Below the pieces are notes generated by a model. It saw nothing but the letters and a program-made list of their open reading frames with translations, was not told the origin of the DNA and ran no database searches. From Pyropia yezoensis (taxonomy: Eukaryota > Rhodophyta > Bangiophyceae > Bangiales > Bangiaceae), in contig CM020618.1 in the NCBI GenBank assembly GCA_009829735.1, positions 2,230,882 to 2,294,881 of the forward strand: 64,000 bases of DNA. The letters run 5' to 3'. A program made the translations under genes and the position numbers. This document shows, piece after piece, positions 42,534 through 63,976 of the stretch; within the stretch, counting starts at the first letter, position 1; every line of letters begins with the position of its first letter.

Positions 42534-43016
42534 CACCACGCGCAGGTGCGACTTGCTGCGGGTGTGGCGGTCGTAGTGCTCGGAGGACTCGAGGACGCGG
42601 TCGCAGTCCCGGCACTTGGGCAGCTTGAGGGGGTTGACCTTGTGGCGGTGGCGACGCGACAGGCGGTGATCGCGCCACATCGCTTCGCCGTAGCACGTCA
42701 CGTCGCAAGCCTTGCACGTGAAGCGCTTCTTGTTGATCCGCCCGTCGGCGTTTCGGTACTCCTCGCGGACCGCCCGGCGCTCCACCGTCTGCGCTGTATG
42801 TGGGCGGATAGCCGCCACTTGACGCGGCGCCGGGGGAGTCACGCGAGGCGCCGGCGGGAGAAGAAGGCGGCGGCCGTGCCGGTCGCGGGGAGGAAGCGCC
42901 GGAGCACATTTCGAAGAGGTAGTCGAGGAAGAAGAGCCAGCGGTAGGCGTCGGCACCGGCAGTGAAGCGCTCGCCGAGGAAGACGCCGCCGTCGTCGTCG
43001 TCTGGTTCGGAGCCAC
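42525..43016 (-). CDS. Extra ORF of element B with two U1-type C2H2 zinc fingers
   Basis: A 163-codon frame between the 5' LTR and gag, same strand as gag. The N-terminal 95 residues are Ala/Ser/Pro-rich. Two fingers follow, each C-x2-C-x12-H-x5-H, the spacing of U1/matrin-type RNA- or dsRNA-binding fingers: CKAC...HRLSRRH and CRDC...HTRSKSH. All eight ligands are present. The frame has no in-frame ATG before the fingers: it opens at a GTG and is closed upstream by TAG at 43047-43049, so translation may need a spliced 5' exon or a non-AUG start. Its end contains a GTAAGT donor-like site. Such an ORF before gag is not part of the standard Ty3/gypsy plan; capture of a host finger gene is the simplest inference. 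Confidence 0.7.
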   Translation of the reverse strand: MAPNQTTTTAASSSASASLPVPTPTAGSSSSTTSSKCAPALPPRDRHGRRLLLPPAPRVTPPAPRQVAAIRPHTAQTVERRAVREEYRNADGRINKKRFTCKACDVTCYGEAMWRDHRLSRRHRHKVNPLKLPKCRDCDRVLESSEHYDRHTRSKSHLRVVRK

Positions 43017-43668: not shown

Positions 43669-44616
43669 TCTAGGGTCCACGGCGGGCACGCACGCGCACT
43701 CGCGGGCGCACGCCGCACGCACCCCACACCCACACCACACCACACACACTCTCGACGGCGGTGACGCACTCGGGGGAGGTGGTGTGGAAGCCGGGGAAGA
43801 AGAAGGGTGTCTGGGGGTGGGTGTGTGAAGTGGGGGTGAGCTTGACGTCGGTGGAAAGGGGTTCTCAGGTACAGTGGTTCTTTTCTTCCGTTCTTCGGTC
43901 TACCTTCCCCAGGTCTCCCCCTCTCGCCCTCGGTCACTCCCTATATATACCCCTGGGGGGTCCCTCAGAAGGCCCTCCGTGTGGTCCTCTCGTGGTTGGG
44001 CACAAGTTTCCCTAGAATCGCCGGTGTGCGGCGACCCCCCTCTCACAGAGCTCGTCTGAGGGGGTCCACGCCCCCCCTCGGGGTCGGTGTGCCCGTGGAC
44101 GCCCGTAGACATGATGGTTAGAGGATGGAAGCTTCGGATGTCATGGATGGCAGGCTCTCGTTGGTCGGGATGGCTGATGGCAGCCAGCCGACTTGACACT
44201 CTGAGGCCGGGTGCGCTGTCCGCGCTCGGCCGCCTCGGCGATGTCTCGCTTGAATTGACACTGGCGCTACGTTGCGCTGTCGGCGCCAGTTCTTAGTCAG
44301 CGGGTGGATGCCTTGCTCGAATTGACACTGGTGCTACGTTGCGGTGTCGGCGCCAGTTCATGATCACCAGGTGGATACCGTGTCAGCATTTACGGTGTGC
44401 GGCCACGTAGCATTGACAGCCATCGTCCGGTTGCATCGTCATCACGGGGGCAGGCGGGATTGAACCTTGAACCTTCCAGATTCGAAATGTGAATGAAGAC
44501 CAATCGTCCAGGGAACGCTCTTGCAAATCATGACATCCGGTACGATTTGAGATCCGGCCTCTGGGGGAATTCCAAGTTGCGACTTGGAATTGCAATGTAA
44601 GGATTTAGTCCTTACA
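43669..44616 (-). repeat. 5' LTR of element B (948 bp)
   Basis: It begins TGTAAGGAC at 44616 and ends with GA instead of CA at 43669, a point change from the other copy. A GTATATATAG box lies at 43941-43950, about 670 bases into the LTR, a likely core promoter. Confidence 0.95.
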
Positions 44617-44639: not shown

Positions 44640-45712
44640 ATGACCGTTGGAGCTGGTCGTCCGAAGCTCACAACGACAGCCTCGGCCAAGTGGGTCAAGA
44701 GGACGAACCAACCGTGCCGGACACTGCGGCGACCTAAGGGAGTCCGCCCACCTCCGGTAGGACTCCCCAAGAACGTAAACCCACGTCGGGTCATCGCGGT
44801 GCTGACGGGTGAGAACTTCCAGGTGGCTGGACGGGTGCAACTTGCCCCCGGCCGCACCTGTTGTGCCCGTATCGTACTTGATACCGGGTCAGGAGCCTCC
44901 TTGATACGCAAGTCGCTATTACCAAAGGAGATGAAGTTCCAACGCTGGAAGTCTAAAGCTGACCATCTGATCGATATCAATGGTGGGGTACTTCCCATCG
45001 TTGGTGCCGAGACCCTACCAACTAGGTTGGGGACCCATGAGGTCGACGTGACCTATGGAGTAGTTGAGAATATATCGGTACCCCTGCTTCTGGGTACCCC
45101 CTATGTTGTTACACAAGTGCCTTTGATGTATGGCCCTGAGTATTGGGTCAGGTTGATGAATGGGGAAACCATCCCCATCCTTGGTAAGGGAAAGTCTGTG
45201 GCTCCTGTGACAGTCTCACAGTCGAAGCCTGTTTGTTCTGTGAGGAAAGGGTTTACTGCTACCCTGCGTATAGCCCGTAAAGTCACGTTGCCCCCTAACT
45301 CGGTGGCGCACGTTGACGCTGTAACTGATTATACGGGGAACGGGTTGGTGCACCCTTACCCCCGTCTTGCTCGCAAGCACCAAGTGCATGTTGCCCTTGG
45401 CACGATGGACTCCAAAGCCGGAGTCCCGTGGAGAATCCAGGTGATGAACCTGAGCTCGTCGCCCAAGTACGTCAAGTCGGGAGCCAAGTTCGGCTATATC
45501 GACCAACACGAGGGACCGGTAGTAGCGGTCACCCTCAACGCGGGCGCAAGTAGCGACCCGAAGTCCGGAAAGGAGAAGCATCAAGCCAAGTCGGCCGCCT
45601 CTCCTCGGCCCCATGTGAACATGGAGGGTGTCCCACCCAGGTTGAGGGCTCAAGTTGAACGCCTCTTGGACCAATATCACAAGTTGTGGGATGGTCAACT
45701 GGGACTCATGAG
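44640..45712 (+). CDS. pol: Pol of element C, part 1 (protease and linker), interrupted by insertion D
   Basis: The ATG at 44640 overlaps the gag stop (ATGA), with pol in the -1 frame. The retropepsin motif VLDTGSGASLI is intact (about residues 79-89). A linker follows, with a segment leading towards RT. The frame runs to 45712, where element D is inserted after ATGAG (45708-45712), and continues at 50735 in the same frame. Confidence 0.88.
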
Positions 45713-46181
45713 TGTGGCAGTATTGACCCCCAGGTAGGGGGGCAACACGTGCCATGCAAGGGGCGGCAGGCCACTAGCCTGCTCCGTTCCTCCCCCTGCA
45801 TTTGGGCCCATATTCCCTAAGCTTGGGATAGTTAGCTTAGTAGTAAATCCAACTTGGATTTGAGGGTTTTCTGCATTTATCGTCTTGAATTTTCGTGTGG
45901 CCCGGTGGGCAGGTGCTGGGGTGGGAGATTCTGAGTGGCGAGATTCTGAGTGGACCCTGGGGGGATAAGGGGAGGGACAGCGGGGCTTGGCCCTGCGTCC
46001 CCGTCCCGACCAAGAAACTGTTGGACCACACACCATCCTCTTGTTTGTCAGTGGGGGGTTTGCCCCACAACAGGGACAGAGTGTGTGCGACTTGCACTTA
46101 TTCCGGTTCCCCCGACACGGGAGGCAGCCCTCGCACACCGCCCCAACTTGGGTGCCGTGTGTGCATGTGGTTTTTGCCACA
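45713..46181 (+). repeat. 5' LTR of element D (469 bp)
   Basis: TGTGGCA to TGCCACA; pairs with 50261-50729. Followed by the same 18-base primer-binding site as element C. Confidence 0.95.
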
Positions 46182-46201
46182 TTTGGTGGAGCAGCAGGGG
46201 A

Positions 46202-46733
46202 CAGAGGTAAACTTTACCTCCGGGTGCACCCGGGTGTAGGGGGCCCTCTGTCTCAGAGGAACGGTGGTCTTGGACTGTGTCGTGTGGATCGTTAGCCAAC
46301 ACGGCTGGATCGGACCTCCCGACGTTCGGGAAACTCTCCGGTGACGACTTTACCCCGGCGCCTTTGAATACTGGCCAGACACAGGGTGTACCTGGGGTCG
46401 CGGAGGTGCTAGAGGCACTCCAGCCAGCAGGGCCGTGGGTATCGGTGCAGGCGGTATGCCACCCCGACCCAGTCGGGTGTTCACCCTGAGGGTCTTCCTC
46501 GGACCGGTGGTTCGCACTTCAGCCACCGGGTGGTACACTCAAAGGGAACGTCCCAAGGTGAGAGGACTGTCCCCGCGAGATCCACTCGGGTTGGGTTCAA
46601 CTTCGGCATAGAGCCGTCGCCAACTAGGCGGGTGGAGGACGGCGGGCCTTCACTCGTCGGTGATGGGCTCGAGCCTGTGACAGGGGTCGTAGCAAGTTGC
46701 TACCCCCGCCACCCTCACAGAAAGTATCTTTGA
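46202..46733 (+). pseudogene. Leader and gag N-terminal remnant of element D
   Basis: It parallels 34946-35950 of element C but is diverged and shortened. The start ATG of C is ACG here, stops interrupt the frame, and gag sequence ends near 46,733, where it joins the pre-RT part of pol. The Gag core and knuckle are missing. Confidence 0.8.
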
Positions 46734-47867
46734 TCGGGAGCCAAGTTCGGCTATATCGACCAACATGAGGGACCGGTAGTAGCGGTCACCCTCAACGCGG
46801 GCGCGAGTAGCGACCCGAGGTCCGGACAGGAGAAGCATCAAGCCAAGTCGGCCGCCTCTCCTCGTCCCCATGTGAACATGGAGGGTGTTCCACCCAGGTT
46901 GAGGGTTCAAGTTGAACGCCTCTTGGACCAATATCACAAGTTGTGGGATGGTCAATTGAGACTCATGAGAGCCACCCAACACCGGATCGAGTTGAAACCC
47001 GGTGTACCCCCTATACGCCAACAACCGTATAGGGGAGGGCCCCGTTCAAGGGCCCTCGTCAAGGAGCGCTTCAACAAAACTATTGTTAGGCAGCTGCGCC
47101 ACTATGTGAGTGAGCATGTGAAAACGTGGGACCAATACATTTCTATTCTTACCACTGCCTACAATTCGCAGGTTCACTCATCTATCGGGGAAGTACCCCT
47201 CGCTTTTGTGACCCCCCGTCGCGTGCGGTCTATTGCTGTGCGGCGGTCGCTCCCAACTAGGGAGGATAGTGGCAGCACGCCTACTCCTACTGAGAGTAAG
47301 GCGGAGTTCGCTGCTAGGCTTGAACACCTCATCCCTAAAGTCAGGGCTGAGATGGACAAAGCACAAAAGCGCTACAAGCGTACCTTTGACAAAAAGGTGC
47401 GCAATGCTAAGCACGTCCCCGAGCAGGGTGACTGGGTGCTGGTACACTCGCACACCCCAACTTGGGGTAAGCTGGTATTCCAGACGAAGGGACCGTACCA
47501 GGTCCTTCGTACTGATGGGCGGCGCTTCACCATCGAAAGTGACGATGGGGTCCGCACAGTGAACGGACAGGACGTGGTCAAAGTTGCATCACCGCCTGCA
47601 GGCGACCCAGCTTGGGCACGTGCATTGGAATCGTGGCGCCTCCTTTCACTGCCTGCGGCCAAACAGGGCCCACAGGAGTACGTGTTCGATAAGTCCATCG
47701 ACCACGGATGGGATGAAGACACTGACCGCCTCATGTTGAGGGTGCGTTGGTTTGGCTACAAAGCCAAGGATGATACGTGGGAGTATGTGGAGGACCTTCC
47801 TGCTGAGAAGGTCCGGGCGTACTGTGCCCGGAATGAGATAGACCCTAACAGCCCTCCCTCAACGTGA
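46734..47867 (+). pseudogene. Pol remnant of element D: pre-RT segment fused to integrase C-terminus and chromodomain
   Basis: An open frame of 377 codons made of two distant parts of pol. The segment up to about 47,063 matches C just before RT; the rest matches the integrase region from RFNKTIVRQLRHY onward. The junction lies at GGAGC, a 5-base microhomology between the two C sites, and keeps frame. The end carries a chromodomain-like segment (LMLRVRWFGYKAKDDTWEYV) and shows what element C probably encodes beyond this window. The catalytic domains are absent. Confidence 0.88.
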
Positions 47868-47978
47868 GGGAACGCCGAGCAACAGTGCCAAGAGAGTGCT
47901 TCAAGTCGAAGTGGTACGCAGAGTGGCTTTTAACTACAGCCCTAACCCTCACACTCTCACAACAAAGGCAGCTGCCAA

Positions 47979-49922
47979 CTAGGCACGCATGCTAGACTCT
48001 CCCACTCCACGGCCCTCGCCCTCACGTGGAGGCGAGCGGCGAGACCCACGCCGATAACGGTCTCCACTCGTTGGAGGGGGCGGCGGCTCCAAGTCGGAAC
48101 CGTCGCGCCCCTCACGGTCGCGCAAGTGGCGCCGACCGTGGCCAATCTTCTGCCTGGTCTTGCGCGCAAGTTTGCGACGCAGACGCTGGACAGACTCCGT
48201 CTCCGACGGGGTAGAGGACTCCGAAACGGAGTAAGACAACTCGTCTTCCGATACGGAAGGAGAGCGCCGCGAGTGTCGGCGACGACGGCGAGGAGGCGAG
48301 TATGCCCGGCTCGCGCGACGTTTGCCACGCGCAAGTGGGGCTGGCTGGGGCATAATAGCCCCAATGCGAGCCAACTCGGCTGTCATAAACACCGCCACCG
48401 ACTCGCAACTCGCGGTCGCCACTGCAGTACGAGCGCGCTCCTCAAGTTGAGGAGTCTCGGAACTCTGTAGGGTTGCGGTCGACGCGGCCAACCAGGAAAT
48501 GGTGCGCACCAACGTTGTGATCATCATCTCAGAGGTTAGAGGCGTGGGCGGCAACACCATCTTGGGGTATGCCGTCAGGAGGGTGGCCCCCAAGTTGGGG
48601 GACACCGGGGTGGAAGACTCCACGGCCACGCTGATCGGGATGTTCCCGTGAGGTTGGAAAGGAACAGGAGAAAGCGGAGGGGCCCGTCGAGGTGGCGGTA
48701 CCCGGGTGTAACTGCGACCCCGACTTGGGGCCCCCGCAGTGGGTTGAGTCATATGGTCATCATAGGACGGCACGGCCATAACTATGGGCATGTCCGGGGG
48801 TGGCGCAGTGTGGCGATCCACCCCCGGGGCATACGGGTAGTCCCCGATGCCCAACCCCTCTCGTACGACCACACGGCCGTCGTGAAGTTCACGAGCGACC
48901 CACACGAACTGGCGAAGTGCGCCATCGTCCTTGGGCCCACGAGTGGGGCGGCGCAACTTGTGCTCGATGCTCTCCCACTCGATAAACTTGGGGAGGCGGA
49001 GCATCTCCTCAAGTAGAGTGAGTTGTCCTGATGAGCACCCCTCAGCAACTAGCTGAGGGGTGAGCTGTTCCAAACCTTGGATGAGCCGGAGGGGGAGATG
49101 CCAGAGCATCCCCCGGCGCTGAACACAAGACACCAAGGTCGACATGACCTCGAGGAGCCACTGGGTGGCCAACATGGCCCACACCAGGTGATCAGGGGCA
49201 GCCGTCAACATGACGGAGCCGAAGTGGTCAAGCAACCGAGGCAACAACGCCGGGAACCCGTAGGGGACCTTAACTTGAGGCCACCACTCGGGCTTCTTTG
49301 GATAGTACTGCTCCTTACTGGCAGCAGACTGCTGAGGAAACTCAAGTTGAGCCGAAGTCACCAAGTAGGGACCTCGCCGAAAGTCTTTCTCCATCCGCAC
49401 ATCAAAGTGATGAGTGTGCGGATCGGCCTCGTGGAGGTACGGCGGGCGAGTTGCCACAGCGTCCCTAGTGAAGGTCGGCAAGTCGCCGGGACCCGGGATA
49501 GTTCCCCCGCGGTCCACCATGGCCTTGGCCCGCTGTACGTCTTCGACCTCCTCGCCGTCCAGGAAGGCAAACTGGTCCGTCCTGAAGCCGGCAGGGAACC
49601 CGACCCTACGGGGATACTTCTCCCGTAGGCGGTCCCATACCCGGCCGATCGCTGCGCCAAGTCGGCCACAGCGAAGAACAGTCAGCCCCTCCTCATAGAG
49701 AGGCCAAGCGGGGTAAAACCACCGCACCAAGGCCTCACGCGGGACAACTTGTCCCGCCTCCGGGGGAGACCCCGCCGTCAACCCAAAGCCGGGTGACGCG
49801 GGAGTCCCGTCCCCCGGAGCGATCGCGGAGCCCCCGCCGGAAGTCCCGGCGGGTGCTGCCCCGTAGGAGGTGTCCTCCATGCGCTCGTCAAGAGAGTCCG
49901 TCTCCACTCCCGGAGTCGCCAT
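47979..49922 (-). CDS. Antisense accessory ORF of element D (647 residues)
   Basis: An intact frame on the strand opposite to gag-pol, between pol and the 3' LTR. The ATG at 49922 starts a 60-residue Gly/Ala/Pro leader. A mixed alpha-helical domain follows (about 65-400), including HFGSVMLTAAPDHLVW and VQRRGMLWHLPLRLIQGLEQL. After a Pro-rich segment, the C-terminus is strongly basic and Ser/Arg-rich (RRRRRHSRRSPSVSED and beyond), like a nuclear-localising tail. The core aligns by eye with the antisense ORF of element E: FGSV, then about 30 residues, then VxRxGxLxHxP, then QL eight residues later. Function unknown. Plant Grande elements also carry an antisense gene for a nuclear protein in this position; homology is not implied. 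Confidence 0.75.
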   Translation of the reverse strand: MATPGVETDSLDERMEDTSYGAAPAGTSGGGSAIAPGDGTPASPGFGLTAGSPPEAGQVVPREALVRWFYPAWPLYEEGLTVLRCGRLGAAIGRVWDRLREKYPRRVGFPAGFRTDQFAFLDGEEVEDVQRAKAMVDRGGTIPGPGDLPTFTRDAVATRPPYLHEADPHTHHFDVRMEKDFRRGPYLVTSAQLEFPQQSAASKEQYYPKKPEWWPQVKVPYGFPALLPRLLDHFGSVMLTAAPDHLVWAMLATQWLLEVMSTLVSCVQRRGMLWHLPLRLIQGLEQLTPQLVAEGCSSGQLTLLEEMLRLPKFIEWESIEHKLRRPTRGPKDDGALRQFVWVARELHDGRVVVREGLGIGDYPYAPGVDRHTAPPPDMPIVMAVPSYDDHMTQPTAGAPSRGRSYTRVPPPRRAPPLSPVPFQPHGNIPISVAVESSTPVSPNLGATLLTAYPKMVLPPTPLTSEMMITTLVRTISWLAASTATLQSSETPQLEERARTAVATASCESVAVFMTAELARIGAIMPQPAPLARGKRRASRAYSPPRRRRRHSRRSPSVSEDELSYSVSESSTPSETESVQRLRRKLARKTRQKIGHGRRHLRDREGRDGSDLEPPPPPTSGDRYRRGSRRSPPREGEGRGVGESSMRA

Positions 49923-50247
49923 GGCTCTCCCCAAGTTGGGGAGAGACGCTCTGGCTATCGCAGCACGAGACCCGCCTCGAGTTGAGGGGGACTCGGATCG
50001 TGGGTATACGGGTGGCCTCCCCAGCGTGGGGCGGCCCAGTGTAAAGTGAAGGGGAGGTGGTGGTGATGGTGAAGTGTGAACTGAGGAGAGCAAGCTGCCG
50101 AGTGGGCAAGCTTGAGGAGAGGGGCGGTCAACGTGACCGCCCCCACGTCCGTGTTACGTACTCGATGGGGGACAGCAAGTCGCGCCCCCAACGCCGAGAC
50201 GTGCGTTTACGCACCCCCTCACAGGGCCGACCGGGTCGGTCGGAACT
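49923..50247 (-). other. Presumed promoter region of the antisense ORF of element D
   Basis: 325 bases between the antisense start and the polypurine tract. No clear TATA box is seen. A 21-bp perfect palindrome lies at 49925-49945, immediately upstream of the antisense ATG. Confidence 0.4.
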
Positions 50248-50260
50248 GAGGAGAGGGGAG
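50248..50260 (+). other. Polypurine tract of element D
   Basis: GAGGAGAGGGGAG directly before the 3' LTR. Confidence 0.8.
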
Positions 50261-50729
50261 TGTGGCATTATTGACCCCCAGGTAGGGGGGCAACACGTGC
50301 CATGCAAGGGGCGGCAGGCCACTAGCCTGATCCGTTCCTCCCCCTGCATTTGGGTCCATATTCCCTAAGTTTGGGATAGTTAGCTTAGTAGTAAATCCAA
50401 CTTGGATTTGAGGGTTTTCTGCATTTATCGTCTTGAATTTTCGTGTGGCCCGGTGGGCAGGTGCTGGGGTGGGAGATTCTGAGTGGCGAGATTCTGAGTG
50501 GACCCTGGGGGGATAAGGGGAGGGACAGCGGGGCTTGGCCCTGCGTCCCCGTCCCGACCAAGAAACTGTTGGACCACACACCATCCTCTTGTTTGTCCGT
50601 GGGGGGTTTGCCCCACAACAGGGACAGAGTGTGTGCGACTTGCACTTCTTCCGGTTCCCCCGACACGGGAGGCAGCCCTCACACACCGCCCCAACTTGGG
50701 TGCCGTGTGTGCATGTGGTTTTTGCCACA
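50261..50729 (+). repeat. 3' LTR of element D (469 bp)
   Basis: TGTGGCA to TGCCACA; followed directly by the second ATGAG target copy at 50730-50734. Confidence 0.95.
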
Positions 50730-50734
50730 ATGAG

Positions 50735-53319
50735 AGCCACCCAACACCGGATCGAGTTGAAGCCCGGTGCACCCACTATACGCCAACAACCGTATAGGGG
50801 AGAACCCCGTTCAAGGGCCCTCGTTAAGGAGCAATTTGCTCGCACGGAGGCCCTCGATATGATCGAGGCCAGTAACGCCGAGTGGGCGAGTCCGGTGGTT
50901 ATCGTCCCCAAAGTTGATGGGACCCCCCGGTTCTGTATCGGCTACCGACAGCTCAACGAGAGCACGGTGAAGGACAGTTATCCCCTACCTAGGATGGACG
51001 ACTGTCTGGAATCTCTGGGGGAGGCGAACGTGTTCTCTACCCTGGACTGTAACGCGGGGTACTGGCAAATTCCCATTGCCCCGGAGGACAGGCATAAAAC
51101 TACCTTTACCTGTCACTGTGGTACCTACCAGTGCAAGCGTCCACCGTTTGGCCTGTGTAACGCGCCGGCAACTTTTCAGCGCGCTATGGACATGATTCTG
51201 GCCGGAGTACGGTGGCAGATCTGTATCGTGTACCTAGACGATATCATTGTGTTCTCCCGAAGTCCAGAGGAACACATTGGCCATCTTGGCCAGGTGTTCA
51301 ACCTACTTGCTGACGCCGGTGTGTCACTGAAGGCGAGTAAGTGCCACCTCCTCACCCAAGAGGTGGAATGCTTGGGACAGGTTGCCCGTCCGGGGCGTCT
51401 CAGTGTTAACGAGAAGAACTTGAGGGCCATCCGTAAGGCTCAGTACCCCCGGACCCAGACCCAGATGAGGAGCTTCCTCGGGATGTGTAACGTGTACTGA
51501 CGCTTCACCAAGGGCTTCGCCAAGGTGGCGAAACCGTTGAATAAGTTAGTGAGCTCAACGCTACCGAAGAACCTGCCTCCCCCAAGTCGGGTGGAGCAGG
51601 AATCCTTTGAGACTCTTCGGGACCTTCTGCTGAAGCCCCCTATCCTTTCTATTCCTAGGTTGGGAGGCCACTACATCCTGGATGTGGGCGCTAGCTACGA
51701 CCAACTTGGTTGTTTGTTGCTTCAGCAGCAGCCGGACAAGGAGTACTTGCCGGTGGGATACTTCAGCAAGGGGCTGAATTCGGCCGAGAAGAACTACGGA
51801 GTCACCGAGTTGGAAGGACTCGCAGTGGTGTGGGCGGTGACGTCACTTCGTCACTACCTAGAAGATGAGAAGGTCCTCATCCGCTGTGACCACCGCGCGT
51901 TGCAGTTCATCGTTAAGACGGACTGGACGAACACTCGTCTCAACCGGTGGAGGGTGCGACTGGCACCCTTCAACTTTGATATTGAGTACCGACCTGGCAG
52001 GCAACATGCCCTTGCCGACGGCCTCTCTCGGGTACCTACCGAGGGGCTGGACACTAACCCAGTCGATGAGGACATCCCCATCGTGGGGGTAGTCACGCGC
52101 TCGGGTCAGGCGTTGAACCCCGAGGCGCCAGGGAACAAGAAGTACTTGCCCCTGTCCCTGGAAGAGGTGGTGAAGGCCCAGGCCGAGGATCCCTTCTGCA
52201 AGTCGCAGAGGGATACGCTGGATACAGTGGCGGAGACGCGGTTCTTTCTGGGAGACGATGGCCTCCTCATGAGGAGGGGGGTATTCCGGGGGACCGAACA
52301 ACTTGTCGTCCCTGCATCCCTCAAGGACAGTATCCTTGAGAGGGAGCACAACGCTCCCACAGGTGGACACCTGGGGTCTAGTAAACTGTACCAGACCCTG
52401 GGGACCAGGTACTACTGGCCGTCCATGGTGGTGGACATCTACAGTTGGGTGGCTGCCTGCACAAGTTGTGCGCAGAACCGTCTGATGGAACGGTGGCCTA
52501 GTACGGCTATGCTGTTGTTCCCGGCCAAGAAGCCCTTTGCCGCGTTGGCGATGGACATCCTTGGGCCACTGCCAGTGACCGAGGAGGGCAACCAGTACCT
52601 CCTGGTTATATGTGACCGCTTCACGAAACTTACGCGAGCGATCCCACTGGCAGAGATCACGGCCATGTCGGTCGTGTCAGCCTTCCTAGATCACTGGGTT
52701 GCCGCATATGGCATTCCGGATAGTACACTATCGGACAATGGACCGCAATTTGCGTCTGTACTGTTTCAGGGTGTGCTGGATATGTTGGGGGTTAAGGCAA
52801 ACTATGCCACCCCCTACCACCCACAAACTAATGGGCAGGTGGAGCGCTTCAACAAAACTATTGTTCGGCAGCTGCGCCACTACGTGAGTGAGCACGTGAA
52901 AACGTGGGACCAATACATTTCTATTCTTGCCACTGCCTACAATTCGCAGGTTCACTCATCTAACGGGGAAGTACTCCTCGCTTTTGTGACCCCCCGTCGC
53001 GTACGGTCTATTGCCGTGCGGCGGCCGCTCCCAACTAGGGAGGATGGTGGCAGGACGCCTACTCCTACTGAGAGTAAGGCGGAGTTCGCTGCTAGGCTTG
53101 AAAACCTCACCCCTGAAGTCAGGGCTGAGATGGACAAAGCACAAAAGCGCTACAAGCGTACCTTTGACAAAAAGGTGCGCAACGCCAAGCATGTCCCCGA
53201 GCAGGGTGACTGGGTATTGGTCCACTCACACACCCCAACTGGGGGTAGGTTGGTATTCCAGACGAAGGGGCCGTACCAGGTCCTTCGTACTGATGCGCGG
53301 CGCTTTACCATCGAAAGTG
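50735..53319 (+). pseudogene. pol: Pol of element C, part 2: RT, RNase H, integrase; one in-frame stop, interrupted by E
   Basis: Continues the frame of 44640-45712. RT has TPRFCIGYRQLN, YPLPRMDDCLESLG and the YLDD motif in CIVYLDDIIVFS. A TGA stop at 51498-51500 lies just after FLGMCNVY. RNase H follows (LDVGASYDQLGCLLL, then TELEGLAVVWAV). Integrase has HNAPTGGHLG with CTSC, then the D, D, E triad in DILGPLPV, DNGPQF and NGQVERF. The frame ends at the AAGTG target site (53315-53319) where E is inserted, and resumes at 63977. A single stop over about 860 codons is mild decay. Confidence 0.88.
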
Positions 53320-53683
53320 CGTAGCAATATGGTTGTCCGCATTGTGACCTTAATATTAGGGGGGCTACTTCTACCCCTTAACTTTCAATTTGGGAGTCCG
53401 TACTGGTCACGGTATCTATAAGTTACGTATGACCAGCGGTACTTGCATCTTGGGGTGGAGGGTAGTTAGTAGTGTCTCCGAGGGTTGATAACGAGGGGGC
53501 CGGCGGCGAATCCACCGCCGGCCAAGGTAGAACAACAAACCCCTCCCATTTGGGCTCCCATCTTGGTCCCGTGGCTTGCGCTCCAAGAACAGCAACCTTG
53601 GCCTCCCGGTGACGTTGGTGCGGATCCCCCGTGGTGAGTGTTCCCTGAGAGTGGACGTGTAACGGATACCCTATTGTGCTACA
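53320..53683 (+). repeat. 5' LTR of element E (364 bp)
   Basis: The first base is C where the other copy has T; it ends TGCTACA. It has a CTATAAG box near 53415 and a hairpin at 53498-53523 (9-bp GGCCGGCGG stem, 8-nt loop) conserved in both LTRs. Confidence 0.95.
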
Positions 53684-53684
53684 T

Positions 53685-53702
53685 TGGTGGAGCAGCAGGG
53701 GA
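53685..53702 (+). promoter_or_regulatory. Primer-binding site, element E
   Basis: TGGTGGAGCAGCAGGGGA, identical to that of C and D although the LTRs are unrelated by eye. Confidence 0.8.
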
Positions 53703-53908
53703 CGGGTCTACGTCACCCTTGTGGTGACGCCGTCTTCGGCCCTGGCACACGGATAGGGATCCAGTCCTTTTCTGGTACTCGTGGTGCTGCGATCTGTTTG
53801 ATTGTTTTGAGTGGTTGCGTTTGACTGCGATCTACGGTTACTCTCCCCCTTCTACCCCCTCGCTCTCCTATTCGTGGTGACTGTTACGTCGGTTGACTGC
53901 TTGTGACT

Positions 53909-56173
53909 ATGTCTACCCAAGAGACGAGGAACGTTCAAGATGACGGATCGGCGTCGACGCCGACCCCGGAGCTGAAACCGGAAACCGGGATCGGTAACCC
54001 GATCGACAACATTGAGACGCCGATACTCTCTGGTGCCGGATCGACGTTTGGTACGGCACGGACGGCCGGGGGCGGCGGGCCGCCACAACTGTCCTCTGCC
54101 GACCTCACGCCGCAGCCACCTTCACCAGGGGACTCCCTGATGGCATCATTGGCTCGCATCGAGGCCCGGTTCACCAGGCTCGACGCCCGTCAAGAGCGTA
54201 CGGAGGACGCAATGGCGGTGCTGATGTCAGCACGCCATACGACGGTACCCCGTCGGGTCCCCCCCACGCCGGTACGGTTTAAACCGGCTGGACTACTTTC
54301 GGAGGCCACCAGGGTCAACCCCGGTTTTGCTACTTCTGGACAACCCCCGGACACGGCGGGTTATGGATCCGACTCGTCGGGTGAGTTGGAACGTAGCCAT
54401 ACGAAGCGCTACGCTCGGAGCACCCAGAGCGGGCTCCGCGGACATGGTCCGGCGGACACTTACGCCGGAACAGAGTCGGCGATGGGGGGAGACGGTACCG
54501 TCTCCGATTACCTCCTCGACGACGGAAGCCAGGCAACTCGGGTACCCGAGGCGCCGACGCCGGAAGTTCCAGCGTCACTGATGCAAGCGATGACAGCGCA
54601 GGTTACTGCGAGCTTACTGAAGCGGTTGGAGTCCGATGAGTTCACTCATCAACTGGCGAAGCGACTGGATATCCAGGACACGGACTCGGAGATTGTCAAC
54701 GAAGTCTTCAGGTCGGTACTAACTCCCGAACGTTATCGTTTGGACGACCGATCCACTGCCGTATCGGAATCGATGCGTACGACCTCGCACTGAGCGATTC
54801 GCTCTATGCAGACGCTGACGAAGGCAGTCCCGATGTTCGGGGGCCCCAACGGACGCCCGTTGGCAGTCATCGGCTTCTTGACCAGCTTCAAGGCAGCCGC
54901 AGACAAGGCACTCGTCAATGAGGGGTTGGCGCTGGAGATCCTCCTGTTCTTTGTTGACGAGCGGGTTCGAGGCATCCTCCGCCAGGCATCCCCGATGCCG
55001 GGAATGAGGGTCGCAGCCACCCCCATGGATTATCGTGGTATATTGAAGGAGTTGCTTAGCAGCTACCTCAGTGAGGACAAGTGCGAAGACCACTATCGGG
55101 CCCTTCGCACTGCCACCGCCCAGTCCTGGGAGGATGAGGAAATGTTTGGACGCCGGATCCAAGAGCTCGACTACGAGCTGGGAAAGCTCCTCGGTGAAGA
55201 GGAACTACGGGCCATCCTGTTCGCAGGAGTACCCAACTACGTGCGGATATCCGCACATGGAGCCAATACGGCCTGGACGAACTTCAGTCGACTGATGCAT
55301 ATGTGCAAGTCCCTAGGGGACGCCTACCGGGTGCTACACCCGGAATGTGCCTTGGCCCGGAAGCCCAAGGGCGAGGGAGGCAAGCCCAGTCTTACCCCGG
55401 TACCGAGGCAAGAGAGGGTGGAACGTAAGGCCGCACCAGTACTGGTGGCGACCGAACATACCCCTACCGGTGAGGATGAACCTCTCGTCGACCAGCAGGG
55501 CCACCTGTTGCTACCGGCGACGCCGGTGATTGATGGGCATGGTACGGTAGCGTACATCGCCCCGGCTGGGACTCAGTTCCAGGTCAACGAGGGAGCGGGA
55601 CGGCGAGTCCCGTATGTGCGGACTACGGGGTATGCCCCGGTTACGGGTAACCCCCACCAGCCCCTGCCGACATGGGCAGTACGTACAGAGGCACCTCCGC
55701 ACATCGCTGGTAGAGCCAACCGGTTGGGGGAGTCCATGTTCCGGCTGGCACCGGGACCCAAGGCCTACGAAGGGGCGGGCACTCGGGCGCCCCATGCAGG
55801 CAACCGGACCTATGGAGCCAACCCGACGCGGACGCCCGGGACGGCCGGCACATCCGGATGTATGTTGTGCGGAGATGCCCAACACTGCGTGTCCTCATGC
55901 CCGCTCATCCCGGAGGAGTCTCGACGGGCAGCGGCGCAACGCAAGGCCTCCGTCGGGGGGTATCCCGCCAGAAGCCCGGCACCGGGTAGGCAGCAAGCTC
56001 CAGGAGGAGTACTGGCAGTCGAGGAGGCACCTCCTCTCCCGGATAGCCCGAACGATAGTACCCGGCCGAGTACGGGAAACGAGTCAGAGGAAGGACGACA
56101 CGGGGTCGCTGGGGTAACCCTAACATGCCACCCCGGACTGCCGCGGGGAAAGCCCCACGGAGAGCGCGGTTGA
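53909..56173 (+). pseudogene. gag: Gag of element E, with one in-frame stop
   Basis: The ATG at 53909 opens a 294-codon frame, closed by TGA at 54791-54793. The same frame resumes and runs to TGA at 56171-56173. The first part is low-complexity with a short coiled segment; the Gag core follows (about 54,810-55,340, with ALEILLFFVDERVRGILRQA and DEEMFGRRIQELDYEL). The CCHC knuckle is CMLCGDAQHCVSSC (55859-55900). Whether the TGA is decay or recoded cannot be told; I favour decay because pol also has stops. Confidence 0.85.
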
Positions 56174-59100
56174 GCCGACGCCGCATCAACCCCCGGGTAC
56201 ACCTTCCGACACCGACGACACGGCGTCAGGGGATTGATGACCAACCTCCAAGGTTGGGAGGAGAGGACGGGAAGCCCCGTTACATGGAACCAGACAAGGG
56301 CCCTGTTCAGGATGCCCGAGCTACAACGGATATTGGTGTAGGCCACGTGCTGTTCACCTTGGAGAACTTCAAGGAATCAGCCACACTGGAGGTTGACCCC
56401 CAGTCGACCCGATCGTACTACCCCGTACTGGATACAGAGGCTGGACCTCACTTGATCCAGAAGGATGCCCTCCCGGACAAGTGGCTCCCGCGAGTCAGAG
56501 TTGCTCGGGGACCCACGATCAAGGATGCGAATGGTCGTCTCATTCGTACGACCGCAGCGATGTCGCTGCAGGTCACCATCGGGGAGCTTACTACGGAAGT
56601 TGACTTCCTGGTATGTGAGACGCTATCTGTGCCCTGCATACTGGGGTGCACCTTCATCAACGTTCACGTTGATGCAATCTGGCCGGGCCGGAGGACCGTC
56701 GAGCTGCAAGAGGCCGACGGGACGAAGAGAGGACAGACAGCTATCGTCAGGGACCTGACGCTACAAGGGAGCCACGTTAACGTGGCTGAGGTATACGCAA
56801 GCGTAGAACCGAAGACACTCCGGCTGGCCAAGCGGACTCGCTTTGAGCCGCTATCGGAGACCGTCCTCCCGGTTAACTGTGACCTCGCAGGCATCTGCAG
56901 AGTCCAGTCCAACCTACGAACCTACAAGCGCCATGGGTTGACCATGGCCAATGGTATCGCAGACCTCCCAGCGGGGGGGTCATCACTGCTGGTGATGGCG
57001 AACTATCGCCGTAAGGCAGTCACCCTCCCGAAGGGAACTATCCTTGGGATTGCCGAGCTCTACGAAGGAGATATCCTTACCCCGGACAAGGAGGGTCAAG
57101 TGGAACCACTTGAGGTGCTGGCGGTCACCGAGGTCACCGAGCGGCAGCAACTCGATGATGGGAAGCCTAACCCATCGGCGGCTCCGGCGGACATGCCGCC
57201 AAAGGAACAAGAAGCCTTGAGGGCACTGGCCGAGGCTGACCTCGACCACCTTCCCCCTTCGGTAGCTGAAGGGGTACGACGGATGCTATGAAAGCACGAC
57301 GTCATGTGGACCGGCGGGGCGCTGGGTACCATTGGGGCCACCCAACACCGTGTAGACCTGGTACCAGGTGCACGACCAGCGCGGTCGCAACCGCATCGCG
57401 CGGGACCTATGGAACGAGAGATCGTTGATGGGGAAGTGAAGAGGATGAGTGAAGCTAAGGTGATCCGACCTTCGATGTCGGAGTGGGGTGCCCCAGTCGT
57501 GATCGTACCGAAGAAGGATCAAACCCCTCGGTTTTGCATCGATTATCGACGCCTCAACTTGGTTACCAAGAAAGACTCATACCCTTTACCAAGGATGGAC
57601 GAGTGTATCGACTCGCTGGGGGAAGCCACAGTGTTTACCACTATCGACTGCAGTGCCGGGTACTGGCAGATCCCAGTGGCGGAAGAGGATATCCCCAAGA
57701 CGGCGTTCGTCTGTCACAGTGGCGTGTAAGAGTTCCTAGGGATGCCCTTCGGATTGTCCAACGCCCCCGCCACATTCCAGCGGGCCATCGACATTATACT
57801 GTCGGGAGTCAAGTTGCGGAACTGCCTGGTGTACCTGGACGACGTCATCGTCTTCTCGCGTAACATGGATCACCATGTGCAACATGTCGATGAGGTACTC
57901 ACCCTCTTGCGGAACGCCGGGGTAAACCTGCGCCTCAAGGAGTGCGCCTTCTTCCAGCAGACAGTCTAGTATCTGGGTCACCAGATCACACCAGGTAAAC
58001 TGGGAGTGCTCGAAGCTAATACCCGGGCACTCCAGGATGCGCAATACCCAACCACCCAGACACAGCTGAAAAGCTTCCTGGGGATGTGCAACGTATACCG
58101 ACGGTTCGTCAAGGACTTCGCTCGTATAGCCAAACCGTTAACGGTCCTGACGAGCAGTGCCTTGCCAAAGGTACTCCAACCTCCCTCGCCCAGCGAGGGA
58201 GAGGCCTTCGAGCTGCTCAAGCAAGCTCTGCTAGCCCCACCCGTGCTTGCGTTGCCGCATAGACGCGGGACCTTCGTCATCGACGTCGATGCCTGCGACA
58301 CCCAAGTGGGATGCACCCTGCTACAGGAAGAGACCATCATCGGTACCGATAATGCTATCCCGGACCTACATCCAGTAGGGTACTTCAGCCGGACACTCAA
58401 CCCGGCTGAGCGTAACTATAGTGCCACCGAGCACGAGTGCCTCGGAGTCATATGGGCAGTGCAACTGCTCCGGCCATACCTGGAAGGTTCCAGGTTCATC
58501 GTAAGGTCCGACCACGAACCTTTACGATGGCTTCTCAACCTTGGTGACAAGGATTCCGACAGCCACGGTCGGCTAGCCCGGTGGAGGCTGAAGATGGCCG
58601 AGCACGACTACCGACCATATATATAAGGCCGGCTCCACCCATCATCTGGGGGACGCGCTGTCGCGACTCGATACCCCAAGCGGGGATACCCGACAGGTGG
58701 ACGAAGACATCCCGGTGGTACCGGTGTGCATGGTGGGTAATGCTACCCAAGGTATGGTTGACCATACCATGGCACACCTTGCGTGCCCATTGACCCTCGC
58801 GGACTTCCGCGAGGCACAGGCCAATGACGATGACTGTAAACGCCATCGTGCTAACCTCCTGGCCGGCACGGCCGGCATCTTCTCCGAGAACGAGGACGGA
58901 CTCATATATCGGCGGTCACCCGCCGATGGTCGGCATCAGGTCGTGGTTCCCGTGTCCTTACGGCAGGCCGTCATGGAACGAGAACACGAGAACCCCACAG
59001 CCGGACACCCGGGGGGTTCGCGCATGTTCGCAGCAATGCGAAGGTTCTTCTACTGGCCAGCAATGGCCGTCGACGTAATCGACCACGTGCGGGGATGCCA

Positions 59101-60247
59101 CCCGTGCGCACGGAATCGTATGAGTCTTCATAGGCGGGCATCCGCTATGAAACTGTTCCCCCCGGATGGACCCAACGAGCAAGTCGCTATCGACATACTC
59201 GGACCGCTTCCGGTAACGGAAGAAGGGAACAGGTACATCCTGGTCATGTCGGACCGCTTTACTAAGCTGTCACGGGCAGTAGCAACCCCGGACGATACGG
59301 CCTACACCATCATGAACGCAGTGGTTGACCACTGGATCAGTGCTTACGGAGTAATGAAGCAACTCCTCTCCGATAACGGAGCAAACCTTACATCAGCATT
59401 CTGCACTAGGGTACTGGGCATGTTCGGTATCGAGCCCCGTCGGGCATCCGACTACCACCCGCAGTCCAACGGGCAGGTGGAGCGGTTCAACCGCACCATC
59501 GTCAAGATGCTCCAATGCTATGTGGCGGAACACACGAAGACGTGGGACAGGCTTCTGTCCGTCTTGACCCTGGCATACAATGCCAGGCCCCACCGGAGTA
59601 CCACCATTGCCCCCCTGGAATGGGTCATGCCGATGGGCGTCGGTGACCTGACGCTGCCACCGAGCAGATGCACTCGGTATGATGTACCGAAGGGCCGACC
59701 GGCCGAACGAATCCACTTAGCTTGGTTGGCCAAGCTATCGTGGATGATTCCGAAGCTCAAGGGTGCCCTTGACCGTACACAACGTCGGTACAAGAAGAAC
59801 TTTGACGCCCGGCTACGGGTACGGAACGCAACCCTGGTAACAGGTGACTGGGTCTATATCAGACACCAGAAGTTTCGCGGGAACAAGCTTATGCAACCGG
59901 TCAAGGGACCGTACCAGATCTTACACAGAGATGATCACTCTGTAATCCTGCACTCCGATACGGAGATACAACGCATCAACCTCAACGATGTCACACCTGC
60001 TCCGAAGCCGGAACAGCCTCAGCCGGTACCGGCTGGGTTGCTACATGAAGCTCTTACAACCCACCGGTCAGATGACGCGGTGGGACCGGATGGGATTCCA
60101 TACCAAGTAGAGAGCGTGGTCGGACACACCGACCCGGACATACCAGGACCCTGGTACGTCAAGGTGATGTGGGTCGGATACGACTCACCCACCTGGGAAC
60201 AAGCGGCAAATATACCCCGCCAACTTCTCATGCCTTACATGAGGTGA
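56125..60247 (+). pseudogene. pol: Pol of element E: protease, RT, RNase H, integrase, chromodomain; broken
   Basis: It overlaps gag by 49 nt in the -1 frame. Protease reads VLDTEAGPHLI, so the catalytic DTG is DTE. In-frame stops lie at 57289-57291 (TGA, before RT), 57727-57729 (TAA) and 57967-57969 (TAG). RT has TPRFCIDYRRLN and YLDD in CLVYLDDVIVFS. RNase H begins FVIDVDACDTQVGC. A frameshift occurs in an AT dinucleotide run near 58,615-58,626. Integrase then runs open from about 58,640: HENPTAGHPGG with HPCARN, and the D, D, E triad ending NGQVERF. The C-terminus is a chromodomain-like segment (YVKVMWVGYDSPTWEQAANIP) ending at 60247. Confidence 0.9.
56146..56152 (+). promoter_or_regulatory. 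Candidate -1 frameshift site, gag-pol of element E
   Basis: GGGAAAG in the X-XXY-YYZ register of the Gag frame (G GGA AAG), inside the 49-nt overlap and 18 nt before the gag stop; a -1 slip enters pol. The final G is not the preferred eukaryotic base. Confidence 0.5.
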
Positions 60248-60675
60248 CGACGCCTGCTGTAACAACGCAACCGTCACCGACTTCGGCTGTTGGGGGGTGA
60301 GGCTTATACCTACTAAGTAGGGTGTCACATGGATTCGGCAAGACTTAGGCTCACTAACTTGGAGCGGACTTAGGCAAACTAAGTAAGCGACTGACTTTTA
60401 CAAGTTTACTTGAAGAAGATAACTAACTCCGATAATTTCGAAGCAACCTGAGGCTTACACCAATGTAAACCCTCATCCATGGGGCAAGTGATGGACTAAG
60501 GAAGGTTGACCTTCATGAGTATTAACCAACCAGGATGGGTTGGGGGCGCGAGAAAGAACCAAAGGCAGGCATTGGTATCATGCAAACGCCCCAGCGGGGG
60601 ATGAGTTTATACTCACTACTACACGGCCACCATAAGGGTCACCGGGTCCCTCCCCCTCACAAGCAATAGCGTTTC
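60248..60675. other. Spacer between sense pol and antisense ORF of element E
   Basis: AT-richer 430-bp stretch where the two opposing transcripts would end. Several short repeats of the type CTTAGG/CTAAGT are visible; no coding. Confidence 0.5.
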
Positions 60676-62520
60676 TCAGTGGGTAGACCCACTGCCAGAG
60701 GGAGGCCACTCACGCGTAATCGCGAACACCTCCATGCTCCACCGGTCGGCAATCTCGCGACGGTCAACCGCCCGAGTTACCTCGGTGCATAGCTGCACGA
60801 GGGTGCTGCGGCCAGCCTCCACGTCCTTCAGAGCTGTCTGGAGGCGGTCAAGCACGCCACCGAAGCAACGCGCTGACTCAACCAGCGCAGCACCTGGGGG
60901 GATATCCCCCCAGCTAACAGAGAGACCCCCCCGCATCGCGCGGGCAATAAGGGCGTCAACGCCCTCATACCATAGACGGGGAGCCCCGTCAGGCATGACA
61001 GGGGCGGAAGGTGACACTGGCGCAGCCAGAGGAGCCACAGGAGCCGACACGGCTACCACCGGAGCCGGTCGCACCTGACACGAGGCCCGGTAGGACCCTA
61101 CTGAAGGGGCCCCACCGTAAACCCGGCGGAGCTCGGCCCGACGACGGGACACCTCACGCTCCCCACCCGCAGAGCCCCACTCTCGGGGACGACGGCCAAC
61201 CGCCGCCGGTATCGGGTTATCCAACCACGGGGCAAGGACCTGAACAGGGTCATGGATAACCATGGGAATACTCAGGTCAGCAACAGCCTCGGTGGACGCC
61301 CACCCGTGGCAATTGGGCTCACCCGGCTGAGTACGCCGGATACGCAACGAGTGACGAGGCAAGGGGGAAGCCCCAGCCTGCGGATCCCGGTACGGGGGAA
61401 GGGCCAACACCCCAGCCCAGTTCACGGCATCGTGAACAGCCAGCAGGGCCTCAAACTCCCGGGCCAACCCGGTCTTGGCGGCTATTATGTCCACGCCCAA
61501 CTGCGCGATGTGCCGACGGACACCCGTCGGAAAATGAAACAGGCGCCCCTGCCGGCGGACGGACAGCAAGAAGGAGGAAGCCTGCCCGAGGGTAACCTCA
61601 AGGGTGAAGGTACCCTGCACCGGGTGGACCGGTCGGGAGGCCAACACACTCCCGAAGTATCGGAGGCAGGAGCTGGTGTCAAACCGGAAAGCAGGGGCGG
61701 GTTCCCACCCCTCCTGCCACAGAGGCGGGCGCACGGGAGTGTATACCGGCGCACGACCGTTGCCGGTCTGCAACGCACATGTTTTATCGGTGCGGAACGC
61801 ATCCGCCACGACACCATGGTTGCGCCGCCAGCTGGACGCCGACTTCAACCCCGCCATAGGCGGGTAGGGAGCCGTCAACGTCAGATACGGGGATACCCCC
61901 GGGAAGTACTCAAAGCTGGGATACCGGCCGGTATCACCCACCATCTTCCCAAACGCACCCGGCTCCGCCGCCGCCGCAACCCCCCGAGCACTAGCCGGGT
62001 AGTCAACCTCCCGCGGCGACGCGGGGGCAATCAAGTCGCATACCCCGAAGGCGGAGTCGAGGTAGACCTCACCCCGCCCCACCCGGGTGCGCCAGAGCTG
62101 CGCATGCCGGTCGTCCGGCTGACTCAGGATCCAATGGTGTTCCACCCGGACCGCGTTCGGCTGGTTGACCAGCCGCACCAACTCCCGCTCCCAACTCGGG
62201 TCCACCTTGACGCGCCGGGAGGTCTCTCCAGGGAGACGCGGCTGGTGGAGGTCCACCCGCATCCGCCCAGCGGACTCCATCGACTCCTGCACCGTCAGGC
62301 CTCGGACCCGAGCCACCAAGTCGGACATAGACATAGCGGGTGGACCCGCCGCCAAGGCGACACCGCCACCCAAAGGGGCAACCCGGGCAGGACCAGGAAG
62401 AATAGGGGGCGCTGGGGGATGCCCCACCGGCAGATGGGCCGGTGCCGGAGGTGCACGGGGCAGAGGAGGAAGAAGAAGGGTGGGCGCCCGCCCGGAGTAG
62501 CTCCCGGAGTCCACTGCCAT
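60676..62520 (-). CDS. Antisense accessory ORF of element E (614 residues)
   Basis: An intact frame opposite to gag-pol. The ATG at 62520 follows the end of a smaller antisense ORF by 15 nt. The N-terminal 65 residues are Pro/Ala-rich, then a long mixed domain (about 65-430). It contains the core shared with the element D antisense ORF: YFGSVLASRPVHPVQ, then VRRQGRLFHFPTGVRRHIAQL, then an A/E/L-rich helix and a Trp. The C-terminal part has low-complexity Pro/Ala (about 470-510) and a last helical segment (LWYEGVDALIARAM to the end). It lacks the Ser/Arg-rich tail of the D protein. I recognise no known family. Open length and matching position in a second element argue against a chance frame. 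Confidence 0.75.
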   Translation of the reverse strand: MAVDSGSYSGRAPTLLLPPLPRAPPAPAHLPVGHPPAPPILPGPARVAPLGGGVALAAGPPAMSMSDLVARVRGLTVQESMESAGRMRVDLHQPRLPGETSRRVKVDPSWERELVRLVNQPNAVRVEHHWILSQPDDRHAQLWRTRVGRGEVYLDSAFGVCDLIAPASPREVDYPASARGVAAAAEPGAFGKMVGDTGRYPSFEYFPGVSPYLTLTAPYPPMAGLKSASSWRRNHGVVADAFRTDKTCALQTGNGRAPVYTPVRPPLWQEGWEPAPAFRFDTSSCLRYFGSVLASRPVHPVQGTFTLEVTLGQASSFLLSVRRQGRLFHFPTGVRRHIAQLGVDIIAAKTGLAREFEALLAVHDAVNWAGVLALPPYRDPQAGASPLPRHSLRIRRTQPGEPNCHGWASTEAVADLSIPMVIHDPVQVLAPWLDNPIPAAVGRRPREWGSAGGEREVSRRRAELRRVYGGAPSVGSYRASCQVRPAPVVAVSAPVAPLAAPVSPSAPVMPDGAPRLWYEGVDALIARAMRGGLSVSWGDIPPGAALVESARCFGGVLDRLQTALKDVEAGRSTLVQLCTEVTRAVDRREIADRWSMEVFAITREWPPSGSGSTH

Positions 62521-62535
62521 CGGGGTAGACACTTC

Positions 62536-63045
62536 TTAACCACCAAGCGTCCGCGGCACCGCGGGCAGAGCATCGCCGCCACCCGGGCCCGACGTGGGCA
62601 CCACGGGGGCAGCAGGGGAAGACCCGTTACCCGCCGCCGCGGATACACCAACCGGGCGGGCACCCGCGCCGTCTTGACCCGCCGTCCCGGCCGGGGTGCC
62701 GCCACGACCATCCGACAGGCCGGCGACGCCGTCTTGAGGTAGAGCCGCGCCGGCACCGGCGACAGGAGCCATCCGGGCCGCCGGAGGAGTAGGGGTAGAG
62801 GCACCCGCTACACGCGGTTGCCCGCCACCCGACGGAGCCGTCGTGCCGCTGCACACGGACGACAAACCGCCCGGCGCACCTTCCGGGGCCACGCGGACGG
62901 TTACCCGGTCGCCCTCATCTTCGGACGAGCTCGCCAAGAAGCACTCGGCAGCGGTGGCAGAGACGGGAACGTCGTCCACCATCACCTCTTCCTCCCCCTC
63001 AAGCAGGAGGTCGTCCTCGCCCCCGGGTACCTGGGGGTCCGACAT
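62536..63045 (-). CDS. Small antisense ORF of element E, acidic N-terminus (169 residues)
   Basis: The ATG at 63045 starts a frame with a strongly acidic N-terminus (EDDLLLEGEEEVMVDDV, then SSSEDEGDRV), followed by Gly/Ala/Pro low complexity to the stop at 62536. It ends just before the 614-residue antisense ORF, in a different frame, so the two could be one bicistronic message, a spliced protein or a frameshift-split frame. A TATA-like box lies about 105 bases upstream. The low-complexity part could be chance in GC-rich DNA; the acidic head is more protein-like. Confidence 0.5.
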   Translation of the reverse strand: MSDPQVPGGEDDLLLEGEEEVMVDDVPVSATAAECFLASSSEDEGDRVTVRVAPEGAPGGLSSVCSGTTAPSGGGQPRVAGASTPTPPAARMAPVAGAGAALPQDGVAGLSDGRGGTPAGTAGQDGAGARPVGVSAAAGNGSSPAAPVVPTSGPGGGDALPAVPRTLGG

Positions 63046-63596
63046 GGTGAAGCCGGGGTAGCAGGGGCGCCCCGTGCAAAAAAGCCGAGGCCGTCTCGAC
63101 CCGGTACAAGGAACGCTCGCGCGGACGAGCCAGGGAAGCGCGGGCACCCGCGCTTATAAACACACAGCTCAGCACGAGCGATACGGCAGCGCAGGACGAC
63201 CCACGCCAGCCGAGCTACGAGGGTGCTCCACCCAGGCACCTGGACCGGAGCCACGCCCCCCCCGCACGGGGTAATCAATGGAGGTCACCCCCAACCGCCC
63301 CCCACTCAATCGTCCACACGAGAGGGGCCCCCCTACTACCAGACGCCTGGTGGCGGATCCGCTTGCACCACCCCTCGGAAAGAGGCGTCGTGAACAGAAA
63401 CCCGCATCGGGAATTTAACGGTCCGGAAAACGGATCGTGTGTGTACCACACAAAGGGGGGCACCCCCCTCACACAACCTCGAAAAGAGGTGTCTGTCGCG
63501 ACAGGGCGCAAAGCCCCACCCGACTGGTAGACGGTCACGCGACCCACTTACACTCGGAACCCCGAATACAACTCGACCCGAGGACGGGCCGAATCT
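63046..63596 (-). other. Upstream region of element E antisense ORFs
   Basis: 550 bases between the antisense start and the polypurine tract; contains the TATA-like box and no convincing frame. Confidence 0.5.
63153..63160 (-). promoter_or_regulatory. Candidate TATA box for element E antisense transcript
   Basis: TTTATAAG on the minus strand in GC-rich surroundings, 108 bases upstream of the ATG at 63045. Confidence 0.5.
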
Positions 63597-63608
63597 AAGG
63601 GGGGGATA
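63597..63608 (+). other. Polypurine tract of element E
   Basis: AAGGGGGGGATA directly before the 3' LTR (one T within). Confidence 0.7.
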
Positions 63609-63971
63609 TGTAGCAATATGGTTCTCCGTATTGTGACCCGAATATTAGGGGGGCGACTTCTAACCTTTACTTTCAATTTGGGAGTACGTACTGGTCACGG
63701 TATCTATAAGTTACTTATGACCAGAGGGACTTGCATTTTGGGGGGGGGGGTAGTTAGTAGTGTCTCCGAGGGTTTATTACGAGGGGGCCGGCGGCGAATC
63801 CACCGCCGGCCAAGGTAGAACATCAAACCCCTCCCATTTGGGCTCCCATCTTGGTCCCGTGGCTTGCGCTCCAAGGACAGCAACCTTGGCCTCCCGGTGA
63901 CGTTGGTGCCGATCCCCCGTGGTGAGTGTTCCCTGAGAGTGGACGTGTAACGGATACCCTCTTGTGCTACA
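63609..63971 (+). repeat. 3' LTR of element E (363 bp)
   Basis: TGTAGCA to TGCTACA, followed by the AAGTG target copy. About 22 differences from 53320-53683, many of them transversions, plus small indels. The hairpin recurs at 63786-63811. Confidence 0.95.
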
Positions 63972-63976
63972 AAGTG

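Follow-up and report, generated by a model that had tools for sequence, protein, structure and literature searches.

A probable antisense accessory gene conserved in two families of Ty3/gypsy-type LTR elements of the red alga Pyropia yezoensis

Background

Are two long reading frames that run opposite to gag-pol in two families of LTR elements diverged copies of one gene, or are they by-products of the GC-rich DNA in which they lie? The question is raised by a stretch of 64,000 nucleotides of the Pyropia yezoensis genome (assembly GCA_009829735.1, contig CM020618.1, positions 2,230,882 to 2,294,881), referred to below as the window. An initial annotation, made from the letters alone, had described one such frame in each of two element families, D and E, and had proposed a conserved antisense accessory gene that defines a lineage of algal elements. 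Earlier work has placed antisense accessory genes in elements of flowering plants and of a fungus (PMC7264820, PMC11963269). No red-algal report of the gene was found in the open-access literature searched.

Here we follow the two frames through the copies of their families in the P. yezoensis genome. We conclude that they are very probably diverged copies of one selected, protein-coding antisense accessory gene, a confidence that covers the selected gene itself and not its function.

Results and discussion

A nest of LTR elements carries both frames

The window from about 34.4 kb onwards consists of LTR elements nested in one another. Two of them, D and E, are of Ty3/gypsy type, each with an LTR pair and a 5-bp target duplication (Table 1). 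An outer D element hosts three insertions: C on the minus strand, an inner D (45713-50729) and E (53320-63971). The body of the outer D restarts at 44617, 50730 and 63972 and ends beyond the window, in a stretch designated L069; its target duplication reads ACAAC before the 5′ LTR and ACAGC after the 3′ LTR in L069, with one mismatch. E and the outer D have the domain order PR-RT-RNase H-IN, with RT, RNase H and integrase matches above the Pfam cut-offs and protease matches below them (E 7e-4, D 0.05). The D carrier of the open antisense frame is an internally deleted copy nested inside the outer D element: gag and most of pol are missing, the deletion junction lies near 47063-47067 with 5 bases of microhomology, and the antisense gene is retained.

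Table 1. Coordinates of the elements and their parts in the window
Feature	Position	Strand	Remark
Outer (host) D 5′ LTR	34457-34925	+	
C element LTRs	36970-37917 and about 43670-44616	-	TSD GACGC
Inner D TSD, left copy	45708-45712		ATGAG
Inner D 5′ LTR	45713-46181	+	
D primer-binding sequence	46183-46202	+	identical to that of E; outer D copy at 34927-34946
Inner D fused RT stub and integrase end	46872-47867	+	chromodomain-like tail
D antisense accessory gene	47979-49922	-	647 codons from ATG, open in window copy
D gene part homologous to E	48966-49640	-	residues 95-319
Inner D 3′ LTR	50261-50729	+	
Inner D TSD, right copy	50730-50734		ATGAG
E TSD, left copy	53315-53319		AAGTG
E 5′ LTR	53320-53683	+	now starts CG rather than TG
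E primer-binding sequence	53684-53703	+	
E gag	54806-56173	+	one CCHC motif; 22% to D gag, 1e-11; no Pfam family found
E protease	56125-57291	+	gag-asp_proteas 7e-4, 20.6 bits against cut-off 28.2
E RT and RNase H	57292-58626	+	two stop codons in RT part, window copy
E integrase	58697-60247	+	weak chromodomain-like tail
E antisense accessory gene	60676-63045	-	790-codon frame; one in-frame stop at 62536-62538, window copy
E gene part homologous to D	61408-62043	-	
E 3′ LTR	63610-63971	+	
E TSD, right copy	63972-63976		AAGTG

Both antisense genes sit between the end of integrase (47867 in D, 60247 in E) and the 3′ LTR, as had been annotated. The coordinates of the 647-codon D frame agree with that annotation. 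The E frame is confirmed and grows longer: the ORF has 614 codons from its first ATG and 618 from a GTG, and the frame runs further upstream, past its one stop, to the ATG at 63045. E copies free of this stop exist in the same genome, and the commonest reported open-frame length among other E copies is 825 codons (range 619-966). In L069, the continuation of the outer D, integrase end, antisense gene and 3′ LTR follow in the same order, with the gene frame broken. Since the E accessory stretch also contains a 496-codon sense frame, the length of an ORF says little by itself here.

In the neighbouring C element, which is 28-37% identical to D and E in RT/RNase H and integrase, the pol frame stops just 470 bp short of the 3′ LTR. 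Upstream of the C gag lies a sense ORF (42525-43016, minus strand) with two C2H2/jaz-type zinc fingers (Pfam 2.6e-10), possibly another accessory gene.

The two antisense proteins are homologous

The motif that the initial annotation had picked out by eye is present in the translations: FGSV, 29 or 28 residues, V[QR]R[RQ]GxL[WF]H[LF]P, then QL eight residues later and a VA/IA pair. The D and E proteins match each other by BLASTP at 8e-7 over 164 residues, and comparison of their profiles gives a significant match (hhalign 2.7e-5 over 207 columns, probability 74%, with very shallow profiles). Their local score of 38.9 bits was attained by none of 1000 ten-residue block shuffles of E, which reached at most 28.9 bits. 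In eight other E-family proteins (P0002-P0009) the best local match always falls inside D residues 95-319, at 23.5-48.9 bits; P0002 scores highest, six of the eight exceed the shuffle maximum, and P0006 (23.5 bits) and P0008 (26.6 bits) stay below it. As judged from these sequence comparisons, homology of the two antisense proteins beyond chance is confirmed.

Across all six frames of the two accessory regions, the antisense pair is the only one of 36 combinations that matches (E-value 1.3e-6; next 0.30), whereas the conserved sequence of the pol regions produces shadow matches in several frames. That the accessory region lacks shadow matches agrees with conservation of the protein. The similarity spans about 160-230 residues at about 24% identity, compared with 22% for gag, 50% for RT/RNase H and 41% for integrase, and the accessory proteins are thus about as diverged as gag and more so than the two enzymes.

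In two protein searches with D the sole relative to emerge was a near-identical one, and a Pfam search of 11 accessory proteins found no family above chance. A match to DUF6214 at 0.014 in one of these 11 was taken as chance, as was the single match of a solved-structure search (flagella, E = 0.38). Homology to the gag of E was rejected (hhalign E-values 0.27 and 0.77), and AlphaFold models were uninformative, with mean pLDDT of 30.0 and 30.7.

The gene keeps its place and persists in pol-deleted copies

Integrase end, gene and LTR are all matched in 28 of 30 E loci and 29 of 30 D loci of the same genome, in constant place and orientation; these loci were chosen by similarity to the gene, and copies that lack it fall outside the sample. 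All 114 scored D-core matches and 51 of the 71 scored E matches (over the matched 618 residues) have no listed stop, fractions biased towards good copies because scoring covered 114 of 3256 and 71 of 2349 first-look candidates. By a count over aligned columns, which ignores insertions and so misses frameshifts, 28 of 30 D copies and 15 of 30 E copies (18 of 30 in the E core) have no in-frame stop before the last codon.

The D family is abundant and partly young: its intact RT junction occurs at 1034 sites (up to 2 mismatches), and among the 31 D loci read (one of them partial) is a group of 13 whose members differ by 12 bases or fewer. Its transcription and function should therefore be testable. 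The deletion junction of the inner D occurs at 63 sites under the same matching rule, and 15 of the 114 scored D genes, the window's included, lie 1641-1643 bp from such a junction with no stop in the matched core.

These pol-deleted copies bear on an alternative in which the protein works in cis, or the copy carrying the gene depends on its product, and elements without gag-pol therefore keep and spread the antisense gene while taking gag-pol from others; the antisense gene, and not gag-pol, would then be indispensable to a copy. If true, the gene may favour its own element over others, for instance by protecting the locus in which it lies against silencing. The 63 deleted junctions and the open genes beside them speak for it. 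However, the two deleted copies that were read (L039 and L064) fall in different D sequence groups, and the deletion may therefore recur at the 5-base microhomology or spread by recombination; the gene in deleted copies may simply not have decayed yet; and, as best-scoring genes only were considered, deleted copies with broken genes would be missed. We regard this alternative as unlikely, though it fares best among those considered.

Shared variants reveal purifying selection on the antisense frame

Copies of the gene were aligned for 30 E loci and for 30 D loci including L069, with L067 left out for coverage. Variants were split by the number of copies that carry them, and N/S was compared with the expected value, matched for mutation type and CpG context. 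Variants shared by at least three copies were taken as mostly older than the insertions. In the antisense frame, shared variants of D are almost all silent (S62/N7; codon positions 5/3/61), with an observed/expected N/S of 0.05; those of E (S74/N46) give 0.27, or 0.19 in the core (S58/N26). Not one shared variant changes a stop in this frame in either family. Singletons give 0.53 in D and 0.88, near neutral, in E, the D value meaning that some constraint or choice bias remains in that family; shared variants differ from singletons with Fisher P values of 7.5e-11 (D, 29 loci) and 3.9e-8 (E).

The integrase ends of the same loci, which were not used in choosing them, give 0.07 (28 D loci) and 0.10 (24 E loci). 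The frames are thus not broken at neutral rates across copies, the outcome that would have spoken against the annotation; their shared N/S lies near the integrase values. Between families, E compared with a third related gene family (L071) has dS 0.74 and dN 0.195, a ratio of 0.26, and compared with the E subfamily L070 a ratio of 0.44 at dS 0.14. Purifying selection on the antisense gene while the elements replicate is supported.

This result also bears on whether the gene is a passenger, that is, a host gene or a gene of another mobile element captured by the ancestor and without a role in the element. The absence of a Pfam family above chance, of a confirmed relative in viral or prokaryotic contigs and of similarity to E gag would suit such an origin. 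However, the position of the gene is the same in D as in E, and its within-family variants are constrained much like those of integrase, which argues that selection acts while the element replicates. A mere passenger is accordingly improbable.

Could the frame instead have arisen as a side effect of GC-rich sequence or of a conserved gene on the sense strand, any antisense transcript being a non-coding regulatory RNA? Long overlapping frames are common in this GC-rich window, the 496-codon sense frame of E among them. Yet the frame that holds the long sense ORFs shows no constraint, with shared N/S of 2.16 in D, 1.64 in E and 2.01 in the E core. The sense frame that shares third positions with the antisense frame does have low shared N/S (0.16 in D, 0.43 in E), as the overlap predicts, but these values are higher than the antisense ones in both families. 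That frame also contains 13 stops in E, and 7 (E) and 4 (D) shared variants change a stop in it. Among shared sites that discriminate between the two frames, 14 in E and 12 in D are silent only in the antisense frame and none in either family is silent only in the sense frame; against singletons the difference is significant in E (Fisher 6.7e-4) and not in D (12:0 against 13:2, Fisher 0.49). The by-product and sense-gene explanation is nearly refuted.

An inverted env-like gene is equally hard to credit: plant elements, too, have env-like genes in the interval from pol to the 3′ LTR (PMC7264820), but the gene here is antisense, the highest Kyte-Doolittle average over any 19 residues is 1.47 in the D protein and 1.41 in the E protein, and no Pfam env family matches.

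A familiar antisense layout and a protein of no recognised family

The selected antisense accessory gene falls into a layout that is already known from Grande, Retand and Boty, and it does so here with a protein of no recognised family. In the accounts available to us, Grande gene23 and the Retand lineage likewise have an antisense ORF between pol and the 3′ LTR of a Ty3/gypsy element, kept across families, and the Grande protein is reported to be nuclear and transcribed from its own promoter (PMC7264820, PMC11963269). The latter source, as available, gives 97% of Retand clusters as encoding a TRP28 domain (PMC11963269). TRP28 (PF04195), in contrast, is found in none of the 11 proteins here, and a search of the P. 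yezoensis genome at E<=10 gave no matches, with unproven sensitivity since the control was weak (one of 14 control genomes matched, none over the cut-off). The brtn gene of Boty, in Botrytis cinerea, is an additional antisense gene in a fungal element; the review, in the part available, groups Boty with the plant antisense elements (PMC7264820), and we liken it to the algal gene by description. HTLV-1 HBZ, an antisense-encoded nuclear accessory protein (PMC11963269, available in part), is an analogy on the same footing.

A red-algal protein without a detected relation to TRP28 in the same place would suggest that one layout has evolved repeatedly, and hence that coding on the antisense strand beside the 3′ LTR is of general advantage.

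We propose that the common ancestor of D and E already had the antisense gene between integrase and the 3′ LTR, and that purifying selection preserved it while the elements moved. Minus-strand transcription would start from its own promoter, between the start codon and the 3′ LTR. Some 110 bp upstream of the E start codon there is a TATA-like stretch, only partly conserved. The arrangement points to a minus-strand transcription unit of its own that converges on pol, as is reported for Grande (PMC7264820). The D protein begins acidic, is mixed in its middle part and ends in a basic, SR-rich tail, with KRR, RRRRR and RRK clusters in its C-terminal region; the E protein has only one RRR. With the Grande analogy, this tail tentatively suggests a nuclear regulatory function. 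As a guess, and as the simplest reading, the product would be a nuclear, nucleic-acid-binding regulator that helps the element to evade silencing or modulates its sense RNA.

Relatives and lineage

D and E look, from their sequences, like members of one lineage: they have an identical 20-base primer-binding sequence, with 1771 exact sites in the genome, and the RT/RNase H and integrase identities given above. One exact pattern for this sequence gave no match to a primer tRNA. Their LTRs, judged unrelated by eye in the initial annotation, show no similarity beyond chance (43 of 500 dinucleotide shuffles attain the observed local score). Its wider claim, a conserved antisense accessory gene in two Ty3/gypsy-type families, is borne out by profile homology, purifying selection and constant place and orientation. 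That the gene may define the lineage is proposed on the basis of three elements of one window and the L071 gene family.

L071 is 66% identical to E in protein, broken, and was read as a gene alone; the L070 subfamily stands at 88%. All named relatives, six annotated hypothetical proteins with 50-62% identity, come from Pyropia vietnamensis. We suggest that some bangialean hypothetical proteins (MMPV_ entries, known here as proteins alone) are element genes. Viral and prokaryotic contigs gave pattern matches, none of which was confirmed as a relative.

Retand elements are non-chromoviral, and D may differ from them in its chromodomain-like integrase tail, which matches Pfam Chromo at 6.8e-5 with 23.2 bits, below the cut-off of 25.1, and a heterochromatin protein in the PDB at 8.6e-5. 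The E tail matches Chromo at 0.016, without PDB support. Chromodomain Gypsy elements outside the chromoviruses exist, as the available part of PMC12477816 describes, and a 2012 survey, likewise available in part, reported no retrotransposon chromodomains in the Porphyra yezoensis data of that time (PMC3350952).

Repeated units elsewhere in the genome and in the window

At three places in the genome the primer-binding sequence recurs at regular spacing (C1:602949-611533, C1:1498625-1507239 and C1:833536-837612, at about 1.7, 1.2 and 2.0 kb), a pattern suggestive of LTR-containing units arrayed in tandem. In C2:9880067-9892399, four matches to the E-type accessory gene follow one another at an exact spacing of 3489 bp and resemble a tandem array of a short unit that carries the gene. 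Within the window, a long array of a 30-bp repeat (28518-29681) lies inside overlapping long ORFs, 27712-30396 on the plus strand and 28173-30758 on the minus strand.
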